The position numbers were made by a program, and so were the translations under genes. This document shows positions 9,947 through 18,189 of a stretch of DNA of 36,816 nucleotides, piece after piece. Every line of letters begins with the position of its first letter. Within the stretch, counting starts at the first letter, position 1. Location: NCBI GenBank assembly GCA_016200145.1, contig JACQFH010000639.1, positions 1-36,816 of the forward strand, read 5' to 3'. Below the pieces are notes generated by a model. It did not search any database, had not been told where the DNA came from, and worked only from the letters and a program-made list of their open reading frames with translations. The DNA comes from Planctomycetia bacterium (GTDB lineage Bacteria > Planctomycetota > Planctomycetia > Planctomycetales > Planctomycetaceae).

Positions 9947-11629
9947 TTATGAGCGGGTCGTAGGCGGGGGGTCTGATGATGGACTCGCATGCGCGACCGT
10001 CGCTCCGTCGGCGCCGTTGGTGTGGGCGGCGACGTGCGATGCGGCGGCGCCGTCGGGCGACAGCCGGGCGACGAACTCGGGGACTTCCACGCCGCCGATG
10101 TCTTTCATGATTTGCATCATCGGGGGCAGCGTGCGAGCGAAGCTCTGCAGGAAATTCGACGTGGCGCTGTGCCCGCTCTGCGCGCCCGGGCTGCCGTTCT
10201 CCCACACGATCACCTTGTCGAACTTGATGTTCGAGATGGCCTTGGCGGCCGTCTCGGCCAGGTGGTCGAGGTGCTCCAGCATCAACAGTTGAAACGCCTG
10301 CTGCGCCCCGCCGCAGGCATTTATGATCTCGCGCAGGCCTTCCCCCTTCTTCGCAAGGATCTCGTACTGCCCTTTGGCCTCGGCTTCCAGCTTCGCGAAG
10401 ATCGCGGCCGCCTGGGCCTGGGCGTCGATCCGCAGTTTCTGCGCGTCGGCTTCGGCCTCGACGATCGTCTTGGCTTTCTGCGCTTTGGCGGGCGCTTCGA
10501 GTTCGGCCCGGCGTTCGGCCTCGACGCGCTCGGCGTCGGCCAACGCGGCCTTCGCCATGGCGCGGTTCTGCGCTTCGAGGACCGCCGCCTCGGCTTCGCG
10601 TTTTTTCGTCTCGGCCAACTGGTAGGCTTCGGCCTTGCGCACCTGCAGGCCGGCCTGCGCTGCCGCCACCTCGGCCTGCGAATGGGCCTCGCCGGTGAAG
10701 GCCTTGGCGTTCGCGTCGGCGATTGAAATTCGCTTGGCCCGGTCGGCGTCGGCCACCTGCATCTCTTTCTCGAACGCGGCCGACTGCTCGCCCACCTGTT
10801 GTTCTTTGTCGAGCTGGGCCACCTTCACCGCCTGCTCGCGCTTGGCCTCGCGAATCCCGATTTCTTTCGACTTCTGGGCGCTGGCGACCAGGACGAATTT
10901 GTCACGTTCGGCCTCGGCGACGCGGACTTCGCCCGATTTCTCCTGCTCGGCGACGTCGCCACGGGCCTGCTGGAGCGCCGTGGAAGCGGCCTTCTGGCCC
11001 AGGGCCTTGATGTATCCCGACTCGTCGCGGATGTCGGTGATGTTCACGTTGATCAGCACCAGGCCGATCTTTTTCAATTCAGGCTCGACCGAGTGCTGGA
11101 TATTCTGCAGAAAGCTCTCGCGATCGCGGTTGATGTCTTCGATCCGCATCGAGGCGATCACCTGCCGGAGCTGTCCGAAGATGATGTCCTCGGCCTGCTG
11201 CTTGATCTGCGCGGTGTTGAGACCCAAGAGGCGGATCGCCGCGTTTTGCATGATTTCGGGCTGCGTCCCGATCGCCACGGTGAACACGCTGGGAACTTCG
11301 ACGCGGATGTTCTCGGCCGACAGGGCGTCTTTGAGCGGAATGCCAATCTGGATCGGTTCTAGGTGCAGAAAGGCAAAGTCTTGAATGATGGGGACGATGA
11401 ACGCATAGCCGCCGTGAATGCACTTCGACGACACGCCGGCGCCGACTTTTCCGCCGAATTTCACCAGCACGCGGTTGCTCGGGCAGCGCACGAACCGCCT
11501 GGCGATGAACACCCCCATGCTCAGGATGAACAGGGCGACCGTCATGCCGATCATTCCGTAATACATGAAGGCGCTGTTTTCCGGATCAGCGGCAGCCACT
11601 AACACAGGCAGAGCGAGCACGTCAGACAT
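9947..11629 (-). CDS. Flotillin family protein (SPFH/band 7, YqiK-like)
   Basis: 560 residues. A hydrophobic N-terminal helix (~22-45) anchors it, followed by an SPFH domain (~50-215) and a long Ala/Glu/Gln/Lys-rich coiled coil (~220-430) with the repeated EAE and AEAER pattern of flotillins. The C-terminus (~440-560) becomes Ala/Pro/Ser-rich. Flotillins oligomerise at the inner face of the membrane and organise fluid domains and protein complexes. The ATG at 11627-11629 has AAGGA six bases upstream and overlaps the end of the NfeD-like gene by 8 bases, so the two are translationally linked. NfeD-flotillin pairs are a known partnership. The adjoining polyamine-type operon runs in the same direction. 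Confidence 0.94.
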   Translation of the reverse strand: MSDVLALPVLVAAADPENSAFMYYGMIGMTVALFILSMGVFIARRFVRCPSNRVLVKFGGKVGAGVSSKCIHGGYAFIVPIIQDFAFLHLEPIQIGIPLKDALSAENIRVEVPSVFTVAIGTQPEIMQNAAIRLLGLNTAQIKQQAEDIIFGQLRQVIASMRIEDINRDRESFLQNIQHSVEPELKKIGLVLINVNITDIRDESGYIKALGQKAASTALQQARGDVAEQEKSGEVRVAEAERDKFVLVASAQKSKEIGIREAKREQAVKVAQLDKEQQVGEQSAAFEKEMQVADADRAKRISIADANAKAFTGEAHSQAEVAAAQAGLQVRKAEAYQLAETKKREAEAAVLEAQNRAMAKAALADAERVEAERRAELEAPAKAQKAKTIVEAEADAQKLRIDAQAQAAAIFAKLEAEAKGQYEILAKKGEGLREIINACGGAQQAFQLLMLEHLDHLAETAAKAISNIKFDKVIVWENGSPGAQSGHSATSNFLQSFARTLPPMMQIMKDIGGVEVPEFVARLSPDGAAASHVAAHTNGADGATVAHASPSSDPPPTTRS

Positions 11630-12257
11630 GATGTGTCCTTGCAGGTTCAGATGCCGGAATGACTTCGAGAATCTCGTTGCCGACGACGCCCACGACCTGC
11701 ACCATCGTTCCCGTCGGCAGCAGGTCGAATTCTGTCTCGGCTTCGTATTCCATCGTGCGGTTCTGCACCGTCACGGTGATCTTCCCTTTGCCGGACCGCC
11801 GGGCGGGGACCGTCAGATAGACGGTTGCCGAGGCGCCAACCGCGTTCTGGATGCGCACCGTGCCGTCGCTGCGCAGTCGGCTCATGGCTCGCATTCCCCA
11901 CGCGACGAGATACAGCGCTGCGAGTCCGGCGGCGGCGGCGATCACGAATGCCCCGGCCGGGCGCGCTCCAGAGGCCTCTGCGGCCAGACCTGCCAGACCG
12001 AAAAACGTCAGTCCGGCAATGACCGTGCGGAAACTGAGCACGCTGAGAAACCACCACAGGGCCGAGTCGTGCCCCACAGCGCCGGCATCGTGGTGACCGT
12101 CGCCGGTCGCATCGTCGTGCCCGCCCGCGTCAAAGTGGTCGCTCCCACCATCCCCCGCGAAGTCGTGATCCCCCGAAAGGCCGATGAGCGAAAACACGAA
12201 CTGGCCCGTGAAAATCGTCCCTCCGATGACGGCGCAGAGCAGGTAAAACTGGTCCAT
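11622..12257 (-). CDS. NfeD-like membrane protein with OB-fold tail (YqiJ-like) and His/Asp-rich loop
   Basis: 211 residues. An N-terminal membrane helix (~5-25) is followed by a loop (~29-64) very rich in His, Asp and Gly (six His and more than ten Asp), then two or three membrane helices (~66-125) and a beta-rich C-terminal OB-fold (~130-205) of the NfeD type. NfeD-like proteins partner with SPFH proteins; the pairing is reproduced by the 8-base overlap with the flotillin gene. The acidic His-rich loop looks suited to binding divalent metal, which is inference. The ATG has AGGAG six bases upstream. It is 290 bases downstream of the oxidoreductase gene, so it may have its own promoter. Confidence 0.87.
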   Translation of the reverse strand: MDQFYLLCAVIGGTIFTGQFVFSLIGLSGDHDFAGDGGSDHFDAGGHDDATGDGHHDAGAVGHDSALWWFLSVLSFRTVIAGLTFFGLAGLAAEASGARPAGAFVIAAAAGLAALYLVAWGMRAMSRLRSDGTVRIQNAVGASATVYLTVPARRSGKGKITVTVQNRTMEYEAETEFDLLPTGTMVQVVGVVGNEILEVIPASEPARTHHV

Positions 12258-12547: not shown

Positions 12548-14197
12548 TCAGAGCAGCGTATCGAACGCGATTCCACGCTCGCGCAAGATGTCTTCGGCGG
12601 CACGGACGCCGTGATAGAAAGCTTCTTCGAACAGGGCCACGCCGCTGAGGTCGGTGTTGGCGAAGCGGATCGGGCCGAACGGCTGCGTTTCGCCGAGGCG
12701 CGCAGCACTCCACACGAAACCAGGGCGGGGGCGGATCATGGCATGCCCCCAGTGCATCACGTCGAGGCGCGTCACCAGGCCGCGGATGTCCGGGTGGGCG
12801 CGCGACAGGTCCGAGAGCACGATCTCTGCGCACTCGTTCCAGCTCAACCCGGCCAGGCGCGCCCGCCCGGCGCGCGGATCGTCGTCGCAAACCGGATAGT
12901 AATACGTGAAGACCGCCGGTCCGCGATCGATCCCCTGCTGGTGCGTCGCAGACACGTATCCCAATGACGGGCTTTCGTAAAGAACGTTGTCCCACGCCAG
13001 CGGAAAGCCTGATTCGCGCGGCCTGTCGCGAAGCAGCAGATTGGCGACCATCCACGAGCCATACTGGAATTCCCGCGCTGCGTTGCCGCGCACTTCACCG
13101 AATCCGCGAATCAGGTGGGAGGCCAGGTAGTGCGGTGCACAAAAGACGGCCTGCCGTGTGTGAAAGCCGAGGGCATCAGATCCGTCATGCGACACGGCGA
13201 CAACATCCACGCCCGGCTCGTCGCCCGCCTTCGGCACAAGCTCGGAGACGGCCCACCCCGACCGCAGCACGCCGCCGAGCGGTTCGCTCAGATGGTCCAC
13301 AATGCGGCCGTTGCCTTCGGGCCAGGTGATCAGCGACTGCGGCTCGGCCCACGGCGTCCGGACGCGCGAGGCGAAATAGAACAACCCGGCCCAGGCGCTG
13401 GTCTGTTCGACCGTCAGGCCGAAATCATCGCGGCAGGAATAGTCGGCCAGCCAGCGCAGGCGACTCGAAGTCAAGTTCTTCCCGGCCAGCCAGTCAGCCA
13501 TGCTGATCCGATCGAGCGCAGTCACATCGGCGTCGTCCGAGCAACTCGCCACGGGGATTGTGAACGCCCGCCGGCCGTGCGCGTCGCGCCAGGCGACCCA
13601 CTTGCTGATTTCAGCTTGAAATGCCGTCCAGTCGCGCCGATCGGCCTCACTTTCTCCTTCGTGCGGGTACAGGCCTTCGTGCCATTCGCCTGCGAAGAAC
13701 AAGCGCTCCTGCGGATCGCGGCAAAGGAACTGTTCGGCAACAACCGGCTCCCCCTCGCCATCGCGCCCCTCCAGCACTCCCATCTCGTCGAGCAGCGCGA
13801 CCAGCGCGCCGTTTTCCTTGAGAGGCGCCGGCACGTAATGCGCGCCCCACGGGCAGGGGATGCCGCCCAGCGAATCGCCGCGGGATGTACCGCCAGCGCG
13901 GGGCTCGAGCTCCAGAACGACGAAGTCCTGGAATCCGGCCCGCCGCAGACGCCACGCGGTCGCCAGACCTGCAATTCCGCCCCCCACGATCACGACACCG
14001 ACATTCTGCCAGCGATCCGCCGCCGGCGTGGGGCGAACTCCGTCGCGCAGCCGATGCCCGATGGCAGCCGACGCGCCGACGATTGCCCCTTCCAGCGGCA
14101 GCGACTGCACCGGCGGCGAACACCCCGCAGCCAGCGCGGCGGGCGCCCCCAGAAATGTGGCCAGCAGCTCGCGGCGCGTCAGTTCCAATGCTTCCAC
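12548..14197 (-). CDS. Tat-exported lipoprotein FAD-dependent amine-oxidase-like oxidoreductase
   Basis: 549 residues. The N-terminus carries a twin-arginine motif (TRRELL), a short hydrophobic stretch and a lipobox (LAAGC, Cys ~25), predicting export of a folded, lipid-anchored protein. A dinucleotide-binding motif follows ([16 protein letters not shown], ~68-83) with GGTSRG, typical of flavin monoamine-oxidase-like enzymes. The C-terminal end ([20 protein letters not shown]) resembles the closing FAD-contact segment. By family it would oxidise an amine, possibly a polyamine product of the neighbours; the substrate is not proven. The start is GTG at 14197, overlapping the preceding synthase gene by 19 bases. 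It is the last gene of the speD operon. Confidence 0.85.
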
Positions 14198-15699
14198 TCC
14201 GCCTCGTAGTACCGCACAAGCGTCTGATTATCGAGCCGGTTGATTTCGACAGGAACGGCGCTCGCGTCCTCGGGAATGTCGAACAGCCCCTGGTACGTGC
14301 GGTTGTTGAGGAATCGCAGATGGGTCTGCAGCTCGGCGGGCACTTCGGCCGGCCGTGCTCCGGCCGTCGTCCGGGCCAGGCAATAGCCCCAGACGCCGAA
14401 CGATGGAACGGTAGCCTGATAGGGGTCGACGACGAAACCCGCCGATTCCAGCGTGCGTACAATGCACCAGAATGACGACCTGGCCACGAGCGGCGACGTA
14501 CATTGAATGGAAACAGCCGCCTCCGGGGTCAGGCGCGCTTTCAAGAGTCGGTAGAACCGTGTCGTATACAGTTTGCCCAGCGAATACGTGTTCGGATCGG
14601 GAAAATCGACGATCGCCGCGTCGAACAGTTCCGGGCAGTGTTCGAGCCAGATCATCGCGTCGGCGTGAACGATCGACACGCGGCGATCCTGAAGAGCCGC
14701 GCCGTTCAGTTTTCGCAAGGGAGGATATTTTTCCGCAAGGCCCGTCATCTCCGGGTCGATGTCGACGAGCGTCACCGCTTCGACCGCCGAATGTTTGAGG
14801 ATCTCGCGCACCGCCAGACCGTCGCCCCCTCCCAGCACGAGCACACGGCGCGGCGTGCCGGCGCTCAGCAGCGCGGGATGCACCAGCGCCTCGTGATATC
14901 GATACTCGTCGGCCGAATTGAACTGCAGGTTGCCGTTGAGAAACAATTGAAACTTCCCCGCGCTTTCCGTGACGACAATCCGCTGGTAGGACGTGGTGCG
15001 GGTGAACACGACCGGATGGGGAAACAACTGCTCTTCGGCCAGCTCGGTCAGCCGGTCGGCCGCCGCCACACCAGCCGCCAGAAGCGCGATGACGGCAATA
15101 CCTCGCAGCCGCAAGCCCGTCAGCCGCCCGTCCATGAGCGGTTTCAGCAGCCAGGTGCCCCACAAGCCGACCAGCGCATTCAGGATTCCGAAGACGAGTG
15201 ACGTGCGGACCAGCCCCAGGCGCGGAATCAGAAACAGCGGGAACATCAGCGATGCCAGCAGCGCCCCGATGTAGTCGAACGCCAGCACGCGCGAGACCAG
15301 GTCACTGAAATCCAGGTGCTCCTTCAGGATTCGCATCAGGAGCGGCAGCTCGAGGCCCACCAACACGCCGATCGCGAAAACGACGCCGAACAATACGACA
15401 GGAAACCACGACAGCCGCCCGAACGCGAAAAACAACAGCGGCGCCGACGTGCCCCCCAGCAGGGCCACAGCCAGTTCGACTTCCACAAACGCCCGCACCA
15501 GGTGCCGCGTGACGAACCGCGACAGCCACGCCCCCACCCCCAGTGCCGACAGGTACACGCCGATCACCAGCGAGAACTGCGTGACCGAATCCCCGAGCAC
15601 GTAACTGGCGAGCGTCCCGGCGAGCAATTCGTAGATCAGCCCGCACGTCGCGACGACCAGCACGTTCAGGTACAGCAGGAACAGCGGTGCCCGGGTCAT
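14179..15699 (-). CDS. Spermidine-synthase-like aminopropyltransferase fused to a ~7-TM membrane domain
   Basis: 506 residues. The first ~220 hold about seven hydrophobic helices; the remainder is a spermidine-synthase-type Rossmann domain with [13 protein letters not shown] (~293-305), [16 protein letters not shown] and IVDFPDPN, which match the decarboxylated-SAM binding segments and the catalytic Asp region, followed by LY...FY. Soluble spermidine synthases are ~280-300 residues, so the membrane half is an addition, though such fusions are known. Together with the speD gene it suggests aminopropyl transfer at the membrane. The acceptor may be putrescine or something membrane-bound. The ATG at 15697-15699 is 6 bases after the DUF350 stop, and the gene overlaps the oxidoreductase. 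Confidence 0.9.
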
Positions 15700-15705
15700 G
15701 CCGAC

Positions 15706-15993
15706 TTATCCGTGGATCGCGCCGGCAATGATGATCGACATCCCCAGAATCATGGCGCCGATGATGATCGCCACCGCCGTGTTCTGGTCTTCCTCCAGCT
15801 CTTTGCGCAGCGAGAAGGGGGTGATCTTGCTGATCACCCACACGCTGGCGCAGAACGCCGCCAGGCCGACCGCCGAAAAGATCACGGCGGCCAGGATGTG
15901 CGACACGAGCAGGCCGCCGGGCGAACCCTCGGCGGCCACCTCGGCCGCTGCCATTGGAAACACCGTCCCCAGGAATCGCGGTAGCATTGTCAT
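15706..15993 (-). CDS. DUF350 (UPF0719) small membrane protein
   Basis: 95 residues from the ATG at 15991-15993, with a GGGG purine stretch upstream. Two hydrophobic helices (~28-52 and ~71-94) flank a charged turn, SLRKELEEDQNTA, the recognisable DUF350 signature. Family members commonly have two such two-helix units; this one has a single unit. The start codon overlaps the stop of the preceding small gene by one base (TAATG). DUF350 proteins often neighbour spermidine-synthase-like and DUF4178 proteins, as here. Molecular function is unknown; a channel-like or scaffolding role would be a guess. Confidence 0.85.
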   Translation of the reverse strand: MTMLPRFLGTVFPMAAAEVAAEGSPGGLLVSHILAAVIFSAVGLAAFCASVWVISKITPFSLRKELEEDQNTAVAIIIGAMILGMSIIIAGAIHG

Positions 15994-16196
15994 TATTTTC
16001 CCCCGTGCCAGGATGAACTCGAGCCGCTGGTCTGGTGTCCGCCGCCGATGAAGATTCCCCCCGGCCGGCCCGAAGCGGCGCCCGCAGCGCCGCTGCCCGG
16101 TGCGGCCCGAGGAAACATGCGCCAGCCGCTGGCCGCCGCCCCCGAAAACGCCACGCTCACCACGAGCCCCAAGATCAGATAGATTCGTATCAGCAT
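15993..16196 (-). CDS. 67-aa membrane/secreted protein with Gly/Ser-rich tail
   Basis: An N-terminal hydrophobic helix (~3-22, IYLILGLVVSVAF) is followed by a low-complexity tail rich in Gly, Ala and Ser ending SSSSWHGGK. It resembles no family I can name. Support comes from context: it starts 2 bases after the DUF4178 stop, its own stop overlaps the DUF350 ATG by one base, and the hydrophobic/tail split is sharp. The helix could be an uncleaved anchor or a signal peptide. It may be an accessory subunit of the DUF350 protein. Confidence 0.7.
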   Translation of the reverse strand: MLIRIYLILGLVVSVAFSGAAASGWRMFPRAAPGSGAAGAASGRPGGIFIGGGHQTSGSSSSWHGGK

Positions 16197-16198
16197 CG

Positions 16199-17791
16199 TT
16201 AATCCTCGTCGCTTTCGTACGTCGCGTAGGGATTGAACTGGCTCTCCGCCCAGCGCGACTTTTCAAAGCCCCACGCGTACAGCGCCGCGCCCAGCGGCAA
16301 CACCGACACCGCCGCCAGGCACACCGCGAACATCCCCTGATCCACGCCCTCCCGAATGCCCGTCGAAAACACCGTATCCAGCAGCGCCAGCAGCAATCCG
16401 AACACGAGCCACCACAGAAAGATGCGCTTGTCGACGGGTGACGGCTGGTTCGGCGCGACCCCAAATGGTCTCGGCAGCCCTTTGACGCCGAATGCCTGTT
16501 CGATCTCGGCATGCGGCATGTACGTCGCCAGAGAGTAATTGACTTCCCTGGCAGCGGGCTGCCCGGCTGTCGCATCGTCGCCGGCTGGCGGTCGCGTGAT
16601 CTCGACCGACAGACTCTCGGGCGGAGCAATGTAATCGGTCGCGGCCACTTCTTCGCCGATTTCGACTTTCCAATAGAATTCCCCCAGCACGTGCCGCACC
16701 GTGGCCAGCGCCCGCTGGAAAATCTTGAACGTGCGGCCGTCGCACCGCGCCGTCTTGCCGCTTGTCTTCACCGAGCCTGCCGAGATCGGCTTCGCGAAGC
16801 TCCAATGCTTGTCGCTGTTGATCAGCCAGCGAAAGCCCTTCCGCGCCTGGTACAACAGGTACTCGGTCCAGAAATACTCCGTGCCTTCGATCGTCACCGA
16901 CCGCGCCATGAAACCGATCACGGTGTACTCGACACCCTGCAAAGCGCCCGACGTTCCCAGCGGGATGAGCGGATGGTGTTCGCTTTGACTGAGCGTCTGC
17001 AGGTATTTGAGCTTCCCTTGATTGGCGTCCAGCAGCGACATGCAACTGGGGCAGGTGACCCGTTCCGATTTATCGGGCGCCACGAGCGTCAGTTGACCGC
17101 CGCATTGCGGACACGCCACCTGAATGGCGGAAATCTTCGCTGGTTCGGCGTCGTCGCCACGTGCCGCCGTTGAAATCCCGATTTCGTCGAGGCTCACCTC
17201 GCGGCCCAGATACAACCTCGGTTCGTCGTCGCTGTAATCGAGCGTCGCAAACGAGGAATCGGGGCCGTACAGGTCTGCATAATTCAGGGTTTCATTCGGC
17301 ACGAATCGGTACGGGATTTCGCCTTCCGCCGAAAGCGCCGTGGCCGTCCCAACTTCGGCAACCGTGAATTCTCCTTTGGTCCCCAGTGCGAGGCGGTGCT
17401 CGATTTCGAGGCCCCCGAACGGCGGCAGCGGAGTTTCTTGCGAAGGCTTTCTCGCAAAGGTCAGATAGAACCGCCCCTGCGCCTCGGCCAGCCAGCCCCA
17501 GCGATTGCCGGGAAATGCGGCATACCACTCATCCCACACGCCACCGGCCGCGTGCCGGTATTGCGAGCGGCCCACGAGCGTAAATCGTTTCCCCTCGTAT
17601 TGCCCATGCAGTCCGACTTTCAGAGGCGATTCGGTCGCGACGAGATCGGCGACTTTGCCCAGGTCCTCCAGCCGCTTGTCTCCCCGGGCGACGACTGAAT
17701 GACAGTACGTGCAGACCGTCACGAGCGAGCTGCTGACCTGAAACCTCACCGGACCGGCGCATGCGGGACAGGCTGCCTGCTTGCCTTTCAT
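16199..17791 (-). CDS. DUF4178 protein with two zinc ribbons and C-terminal membrane helices
   Basis: 530 residues. It opens with a zinc ribbon (CPAC...CTYC, ~8-32), then a DUF4178 domain (~55-200) with YEGKRFTLVGRSQY and WDEWYAAF. A second ribbon (CPQC...CPSC, ~227-250) precedes a second DUF4178 copy (~270-415; YTVIGFMARS, YFWTEYLLYQ, GFRWL). Two hydrophobic helices lie near 455-520. DUF4178 has no established biochemical role; the duplicated ribbon-domain pair suggests nucleic-acid or protein binding at the membrane. The ATG at 17789-17791 overlaps the speD stop as ATGA. The domain architecture is clear and the function unknown. Confidence 0.87.
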   Translation of the reverse strand: MKGKQAACPACAGPVRFQVSSSLVTVCTYCHSVVARGDKRLEDLGKVADLVATESPLKVGLHGQYEGKRFTLVGRSQYRHAAGGVWDEWYAAFPGNRWGWLAEAQGRFYLTFARKPSQETPLPPFGGLEIEHRLALGTKGEFTVAEVGTATALSAEGEIPYRFVPNETLNYADLYGPDSSFATLDYSDDEPRLYLGREVSLDEIGISTAARGDDAEPAKISAIQVACPQCGGQLTLVAPDKSERVTCPSCMSLLDANQGKLKYLQTLSQSEHHPLIPLGTSGALQGVEYTVIGFMARSVTIEGTEYFWTEYLLYQARKGFRWLINSDKHWSFAKPISAGSVKTSGKTARCDGRTFKIFQRALATVRHVLGEFYWKVEIGEEVAATDYIAPPESLSVEITRPPAGDDATAGQPAAREVNYSLATYMPHAEIEQAFGVKGLPRPFGVAPNQPSPVDKRIFLWWLVFGLLLALLDTVFSTGIREGVDQGMFAVCLAAVSVLPLGAALYAWGFEKSRWAESQFNPYATYESDED

Positions 17792-18189
17792 GCCGGGCCT
17801 CTGCCGCTCGCGGCCGGAAGTCGCTCGCAGTCATCATCGACCATCCTCCCGCCGCGCGGCACACACCGCACCACGACGCGTGCGGCGCCCAGTCGTTCTG
17901 TGAGCCGTTCCTGCCAGGGCCAGTCCGCGTGCGGCCGGCAACAGTACAGATTGAACGTCGCCAGGCCAAACTCAGGAAACGTGTGGCACGTCAAATGCGA
18001 CTCGGCCAGCAGGTACATCCCCGTCACTCCGCTGGGCGCGGGGAACTGATGCCAGTGCGGGTGGCCGATCGTCCGCAGTTCGAGGTCCGAAATCACCTCG
18101 TTGCACAAGGCGCGAAGCGTCGCCAGATTGCTCAATGCCGCGCTTTCGCAGCCCTCGGCCTCGATGATCCATTCGTGCCCGGTCAGCAT
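17788..18189 (-). CDS. speD: S-adenosylmethionine decarboxylase proenzyme
   Basis: 133 residues from the ATG at 18187-18189; an in-frame ATG at 18211-18213 would give 141. I prefer the shorter form because MLTGHEWIIEAEGC aligns with the usual start of small bacterial SpeD proteins; neither start has a good ribosome-binding site. The key motif is LLAESHLTCHTFPE: the Ser is the self-cleavage site that becomes the pyruvoyl cofactor, and the following His and Cys are the expected catalytic residues. The product, decarboxylated SAM, is the aminopropyl donor for spermidine-synthase-type enzymes such as the one four genes downstream. It is the first gene of the operon. No putrescine-forming enzyme is in the window. 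Confidence 0.9.
   Translation of the reverse strand: MLTGHEWIIEAEGCESAALSNLATLRALCNEVISDLELRTIGHPHWHQFPAPSGVTGMYLLAESHLTCHTFPEFGLATFNLYCCRPHADWPWQERLTERLGAARVVVRCVPRGGRMVDDDCERLPAASGRGPA

Follow-up and report, generated by a model that had tools for sequence, protein, structure and literature searches.

Which target is modified by membrane-bound SpeE-like enzymes encoded beside an AdoMet decarboxylase has been an open question, for which the locus described here now provides a testable candidate. In the window, i.e., the whole stretch of 36,816 nucleotides that was analysed, a speD gene stands in one operon with the gene of a 7TM SpeE-type enzyme and with that of a microprotein which ends in lysine.

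Operon layout and recurrence

The six genes of the operon and two downstream neighbours, the latter listed as candidates only, are the following:

17788..18189, minus strand: speD, S-adenosylmethionine decarboxylase class 1b, 133 aa (PF02675, 84.9 bits)
16199..17791, minus strand: DUF4178 protein, 530 aa, in which zinc ribbons, DUF4178 domains and C-terminal TM helices each occur twice (PF13785)
15993..16196, minus strand: microprotein with an N-terminal TM helix and a Gly/Ser tail, end ...WHGGK-COOH, 67 aa; proposed acceptor or carrier
15706..15993, minus strand: DUF350 membrane protein, half-length form, 95 aa (PF03994, 53.6 bits)
14179..15699, minus strand: 7TM polyamine aminopropyltransferase, SpeE domain at about 230-478, 506 aa (NF002956)
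12548..14197, minus strand: exported FAD amine-oxidase-like protein, Tat motif and lipobox at the start, 549 aa (PF01593)
11622..12257, minus strand: NfeD/YqiJ-like membrane protein, neighbour, candidate only (weak NfeD match, E 0.015)
9947..11629, minus strand: flotillin (SPFH/Band 7), neighbour, candidate only (PF01145, 90.4 bits)

The genes of speD and the DUF4178 protein overlap in ATGA, and a gap of 2 bases separates the latter from the microprotein gene. TAATG is common to the genes of the microprotein and DUF350, 6 bases lie between DUF350 and SpeE, and the SpeE gene overlaps the FAD gene by 19 bases. The place of the six-gene operon, its strand and every junction were as the initial annotation had given them. 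The flotillin and NfeD/YqiJ-like genes (9947-12257, minus strand), a known membrane-microdomain pair, are located directly downstream, the NfeD-like gene at a distance of 290 bases. Both were rejected as operon members, since they adjoin the operon in this window alone and not in the other loci compared; the pair is probably a separate unit. A terminator hairpin right behind the operon was also rejected, as the 81 bases in question fold worse than shuffled sequences.

The nearest named loci and the enzyme tree place the genome of the window in Planctomycetota. In a search of the phylum, 38 of 392 Planctomycetota genomes encoded the 7TM SpeE and 39 the DUF4178 protein. Both occurred together in 34 of the 392 genomes compared to 3.8 expected (hypergeometric p about 1e-39, to be taken as a guide only because related genomes are not independent). 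The order DUF4178 - tiny protein - DUF350 - 7TM SpeE was kept across Planctomycetota, often with speD ahead and the FAD gene behind, and the same order was observed in named genomes of Acidobacteriota, Myxococcota, Gemmatimonadota, Verrucomicrobiota, Bacteroidota, Pseudomonadota and Spirochaetota. The neighbourhood comparison thus bore out the earlier expectation that the set recurs in other genomes: it is found in at least eight phyla, and its arrangement is far from chance. On a Novosphingobium plasmid, genes for a Band-7 protein, two DUF4178 proteins, a short hypothetical protein, DUF350, an aminopropyltransferase, an FAD oxidoreductase and SpeD follow in a row, and other Band-7 proteins flank some homologous operons. 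The proximity of DUF4178, DUF350 and SpeE-like genes to membrane-stress genes, mentioned in the initial annotation, agrees with a link proposed in print from PspA and Band-7 neighbourhoods (PMC11237479).

Further features were recorded at individual loci. A multi-TM protein of about 370 aa with LFSPQVDLLAFGG near its start and without a Pfam family is encoded at L113:8411-9520 (plus strand) and at 22 other operon-bearing loci; in the cases inspected, its gene lies downstream of that of the FAD protein. On a Myxococcales contig (L171:755-7563) the module occurs twice, back to back and on opposite strands; a fused lysine tail is present in one copy, while the other holds a short piece of the 7TM SpeE. 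A role in anti-phage defence was dismissed, as PADLOC matches were weak and generic (methyltransferase or Rossmann), and so was a phage origin, as neither the enzyme nor the microprotein had any PHROGs match.

The 7TM SpeE enzyme and its partners

The 7TM enzyme matched NF002956/PRK03612 with 646 bits (cut-off 472) and Spermine_synth (PF01564) with 120.7 bits. Residues D293, D313, D315, D347, D365, D368, Y268 and E270 are conserved, D293 being invariant, and GGGDG, YHE and both aspartates of the catalytic loop DFPDP are kept. The loss of catalytic Asp residues, which would have spoken against aminopropyl transfer according to the initial annotation, was thus not observed in the alignment. Judged by sequence, every residue needed for binding of decarboxylated AdoMet (dcAdoMet) and for transfer is kept. 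The AlphaFold model (pLDDT 91.7) displays an aminopropyltransferase fold with 1uir/3anx, triamine/agmatine aminopropyltransferase, as its nearest folds; plasmid-derived rows were left out of the structure predictions. The identity of a fungal-type methyltransferase is ruled out by the acidic GxGDG, and we consider the 7TM SpeE very probably a true aminopropyltransferase.

Differences to soluble spermidine synthase occurred on the acceptor side. The complete N-terminal beta hairpin that closes this side in the soluble enzyme is missing in the 7TM SpeE because the domain directly follows the last TM helix. PDB matches begin at residue 24 (1uir) or 47 (6bq2) compared to 5 and 30 for soluble SpeE, and the soluble motifs PTY and QNG/QAG are replaced by PSF and Q[SAC]TSP. 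In positive-inside analysis, Lys/Arg were richer on the N-terminal side in all 57 of the 57 7TM enzymes, with means of 0.7, 2.6, 3.5 and 3.5 Lys+Arg per alternate loop on this side and 0.02, 0.7 and 1.5 on the other. From this charge bias, the N-terminus is predicted to be inside and the catalytic domain outside, on the side of the tail. Three acidic residues in or beside TM helices (E24, E117 and D142) are conserved and would suit a cationic substrate.

SpeD exceeded the cut-off of AdoMet_dc (PF02675, 84.9 bits compared to 25) and was below that of TIGR03330 (66.5 bits compared to 75.65); its pyruvoyl Ser, His and Cys motif is kept (ES-H-H-PE-C; ESHLTCHTFPEFGLATFNLYCC). It is the only SpeD in its genome, and exactly one SpeD, located inside the operon or elsewhere, was found in each of 13 operon-bearing genomes tested. 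A neofunctionalised decarboxylase is unlikely here, as this sole SpeD occurs in a genome with SpeE and a separate arginine decarboxylase; a candidate for such an enzyme was noted in a relative (G018 C1:4348869-4349192) with one SpeD (TIGR03330, 83 bits) and no good SpeE. In the operon SpeD of Bacteroidota (L162, L179, L180, L181, L184 and L185), VFLSNF or YLSN stands at the place of Cys in the others, and the catalytic Cys seems to be lost or moved. The genome of the window also encodes an 866-aa protein with a SpeE-like domain (G000 C592, L087:21-2621, plus strand; fused MFS/spermidine synthase model, 93 bits, over cut-off), and many relatives each have several long SpeE-like proteins of this kind.

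In the DUF4178 protein, PF13785 matched two stretches (113.8 bits), the TM helices span residues 457-475 and 486-504, and C227, C230, C247 and C250 are invariant among 37 sequences. A search for a solved structure of DUF4178 returned matches only to zinc ribbons (LysW type, RNA polymerase subunit P). The match of the DUF350 protein spans about half of the 133 profile positions.

The FAD protein exceeded the cut-off of Amino_oxidase (PF01593, 66.1 bits compared to 19.8), and its nearest folds are monoamine oxidase, putrescine oxidase and spermidine dehydrogenase. Among 44 sequences R8 is invariant and R9 nearly so, consistent with a twin-arginine-type start, to which a lipobox is added in this copy. 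For the active-site lysine that is conserved near flavin N5 in flavin amine oxidases, a comparison of the 44 sequences with one another showed no invariant Lys. An exported amine-processing role, as put forward in the initial annotation, fits this conserved start and the amine-oxidase fold. Some operons, e.g., L041, L045 and L058, are without the oxidase, and the oxidase is therefore not essential to the reaction.

The microprotein tail and its proposed modification

The microprotein had no family match in Pfam, NCBIfam, PHROGs or PADLOC. It is nevertheless conserved, and homologues were picked by position in 85 loci, the ORF being chosen by hydrophobicity and position alone while the C-terminus was ignored. 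All 85 microproteins (84 distinct sequences), each with one TM helix, have a C-terminal Lys, and 84 of them end in GK or HK, the penultimate residue being G in 66, H in 18 and V in 1. Control ORFs from the same loci ended in K in 3.7% and in GK/HK in 0.27% of cases. The 20 residues ahead of the end hold a mean of only 0.26 Lys, and the net charge is +1.5 before and +0.1 after the TM helix. Six loci have no microprotein, and in each of them it is the DUF4178 protein that terminates in the same Gly/Ser-rich tail with GK or HK; as these fused proteins have one TM helix and not two, the tail would lie outside again. At least four independent fusion events were counted on a tree of 96 enzymes, a quick tree with many forks open. 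In a divergent branch, the tail is carried by an unrelated lipoprotein (...GGGFGK) or a zinc-ribbon-TM protein, with ends of ...GGGFGK or ...GFGGK. Proteobacterial genomes with an unlinked 7TM SpeE still possess DUF4178 elsewhere, and in several of these cases (L189, L190, L192, L193 and L195) the lysine tail occurs on or beside the distant DUF4178. The tail therefore travels with the enzyme and not with the scaffold. This coupling of tail and enzyme is our strongest result, and we regard it as nearly certain.

We propose that the operon may represent an envelope aminopropylation module. SpeD would make decarboxylated AdoMet in the cytoplasm, and the 7TM SpeE, with its catalytic domain outside, would pass the aminopropyl group on to the microprotein, namely to the side-chain amine of its C-terminal lysine. 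The flexible, Gly-rich tail of the microprotein would be located on the same membrane side as the catalytic domain. The product, N-epsilon-aminopropyl-lysine, would present a spermidine-like cationic end at the membrane, and the Tat-exported FAD amine-oxidase-like protein might oxidise or trim that amine. The donor might be moved across with the help of DUF350 and of the conserved acidic residues in the TM region of the enzyme, and the DUF4178/zinc-ribbon protein may be the partner of the tail in the cytoplasm, with the tail attached to it in some cases. In this scheme we infer the acceptor, the export of the donor and the oxidase substrate; the intact catalytic residues, the conserved gene set, the obligate lysine end, the scaffold swaps and the topology predicted from charge bias were read from the sequences.

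The initial annotation had left a lipid, a protein or an ordinary polyamine as possible acceptors, and among these the invariant C-terminal lysine of the tiny protein speaks for a protein. In its chemistry, the side chain of lysine resembles the end of putrescine, both being aminobutyl amines, which counts for lysine as the acceptor; the donor is made in the cytoplasm and we know of no dcAdoMet exporter, which counts against transfer outside. The earlier claim that an aminopropyl group is made or attached at the membrane stood as the best reading; the basic idea was already in print. An acceptor other than a free polyamine appears rather likely to us. That the terminal lysine is this acceptor, at the outer membrane face, is a tentative assignment with a little less than an even chance. 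As a whole, a new bacterial post-translational modification system in at least eight phyla, in which an obligate C-terminal lysine on a dedicated, membrane-anchored and Gly-rich tail is aminopropylated outside the cytoplasm from exported decarboxylated AdoMet and an exported flavoenzyme processes the product, is conceivable but rather doubtful. As the last residue is invariant and kept across several protein scaffolds, the question is reduced to one mass-spectrometry experiment.

The conserved C-terminal lysine could instead be a docking or sorting signal and not an acceptor. An unlikely, if still substantial, alternative along this line is that the 7TM enzyme is an ordinary membrane-held polyamine synthase (for putrescine, agmatine or spermidine), that the lysine tail mimics a polyamine end for docking or regulation, and that the exported FAD protein oxidises polyamines. 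The host genome encodes a biosynthetic arginine decarboxylase and the 7TM enzyme is its only good SpeE, so that this enzyme could be simply the polyamine synthase of the cell; its catalytic residues and fold, which are those of soluble aminopropyltransferases, and the resemblance of the FAD protein to amine, putrescine and spermidine oxidases/dehydrogenases are in line with this view. However, the catalytic domain is predicted to be outside and the acceptor side is altered, and a relative (G024) has canonical SpeD and SpeE elsewhere in addition to the 7TM enzyme, which argues for a distinct job of the latter. In the study of Li et al. 2019, a spermidine-synthase mutant was reportedly not complemented. 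Ravi et al. 2024 discuss aminopropylation of other substrates and cite Li et al. 2019 for it (PMC11237479).

We consider it improbable that a membrane lipid or another envelope polymer is the acceptor and is turned cationic, with the lysine-tailed protein as a scaffold or substrate-presenting subunit. The position of the enzyme in the membrane, with a catalytic domain predicted on the outer side, would suit such a substrate, as would the membrane-stress genes (PMC11237479) and Band-7 proteins adjoining relatives of the operon, but the obligate C-terminal lysine, kept through several scaffold swaps, would be left unexplained. It is similarly improbable that a different reaction, i.e., proteolytic sorting or peptide conjugation, acts on the Gly-rich Lys tail and that aminopropyl chemistry supplies the conjugated amine. 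A GG end is common to the DUF1190 proteins beside DUF350 and/or YjfC/YgiC (YjfM, YgiB and two others), for which such sorting or conjugation is suspected; however, no ATP-grasp ligase was noticed in the studied loci, and GG and GK ends differ.

Comparison with known systems

Li et al. 2019 reportedly described a membrane-fused SpdSyn-like protein together with SpeD and DUF350 and proposed a non-putrescine acceptor without naming one; in our analysis, a concrete acceptor candidate emerges. The PspA-associated group 2 operon of Ravi et al. 2024 comprises CesT/Tir-PspA, 7TM-SpeE, DUF350, DUF4178 and a small lipoprotein (PMC11237479). It resembles the operon studied here in combining DUF350, DUF4178 and 7TM-SpeE, whereas speD and the exported FAD protein are present in ours. 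No PspA or CesT/Tir gene was found among the six operon genes and the two downstream genes, and the PspA matches of the genome lie on other contigs. In the open literature, that paper was the only relevant one found for DUF4178 or aminopropylated proteins, and the word lysine is absent from its main text (PMC11237479). The operon class is partly known (Ravi 2024; Li 2019), and the idea that its enzyme aminopropylates a non-putrescine acceptor is known as well; compared to the searchable open literature, we regard three points alone as new: the obligate end in lysine, the swaps of its scaffold and the argument from topology.

The E. coli yjfIJKLMC and ygiBC loci similarly encode DUF350 (yjfL), a polyamine-handling enzyme and an exported protein whose end is rich in Gly, but combine an ATP-grasp ligase with a GG end in place of an aminopropyltransferase with a GK end. 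All four DUF1190 proteins looked at, YjfM (L186:4888-5526), YgiB (L188:745-1416) and those of L240 and L248, end in GG-COOH, and those of E. coli adjoin proteins annotated as peptide--spermidine ligase. The DUF1190 loci may harbour a parallel C-terminal modification system.

In fungi, a 7TM SpdSyn-like enzyme acts on secreted proteins by methylating their N-terminal His (PMC10349129). It likewise consists of an N-terminal 7TM region and a C-terminal SpdSyn-like domain and modifies a terminal residue; however, it is without the acidic residue of GxG(D/E)G (PMC10349129), whereas the 7TM SpeE keeps D293 and should use dcAdoMet. By its related architecture, the fungal histidine methyltransferase may serve as a precedent. 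Deoxyhypusine of eIF5A and the lysines of silaffins carry a polyamine-type group on the lysine side chain, as proposed here, but these are internal lysines, formed by a different enzyme in the case of eIF5A, and are not known from bacterial envelopes. If our proposal is true, a hypusine-like modification would occur at the bacterial envelope, and this would be, to our knowledge, the first known role for dcAdoMet outside the cytoplasm.
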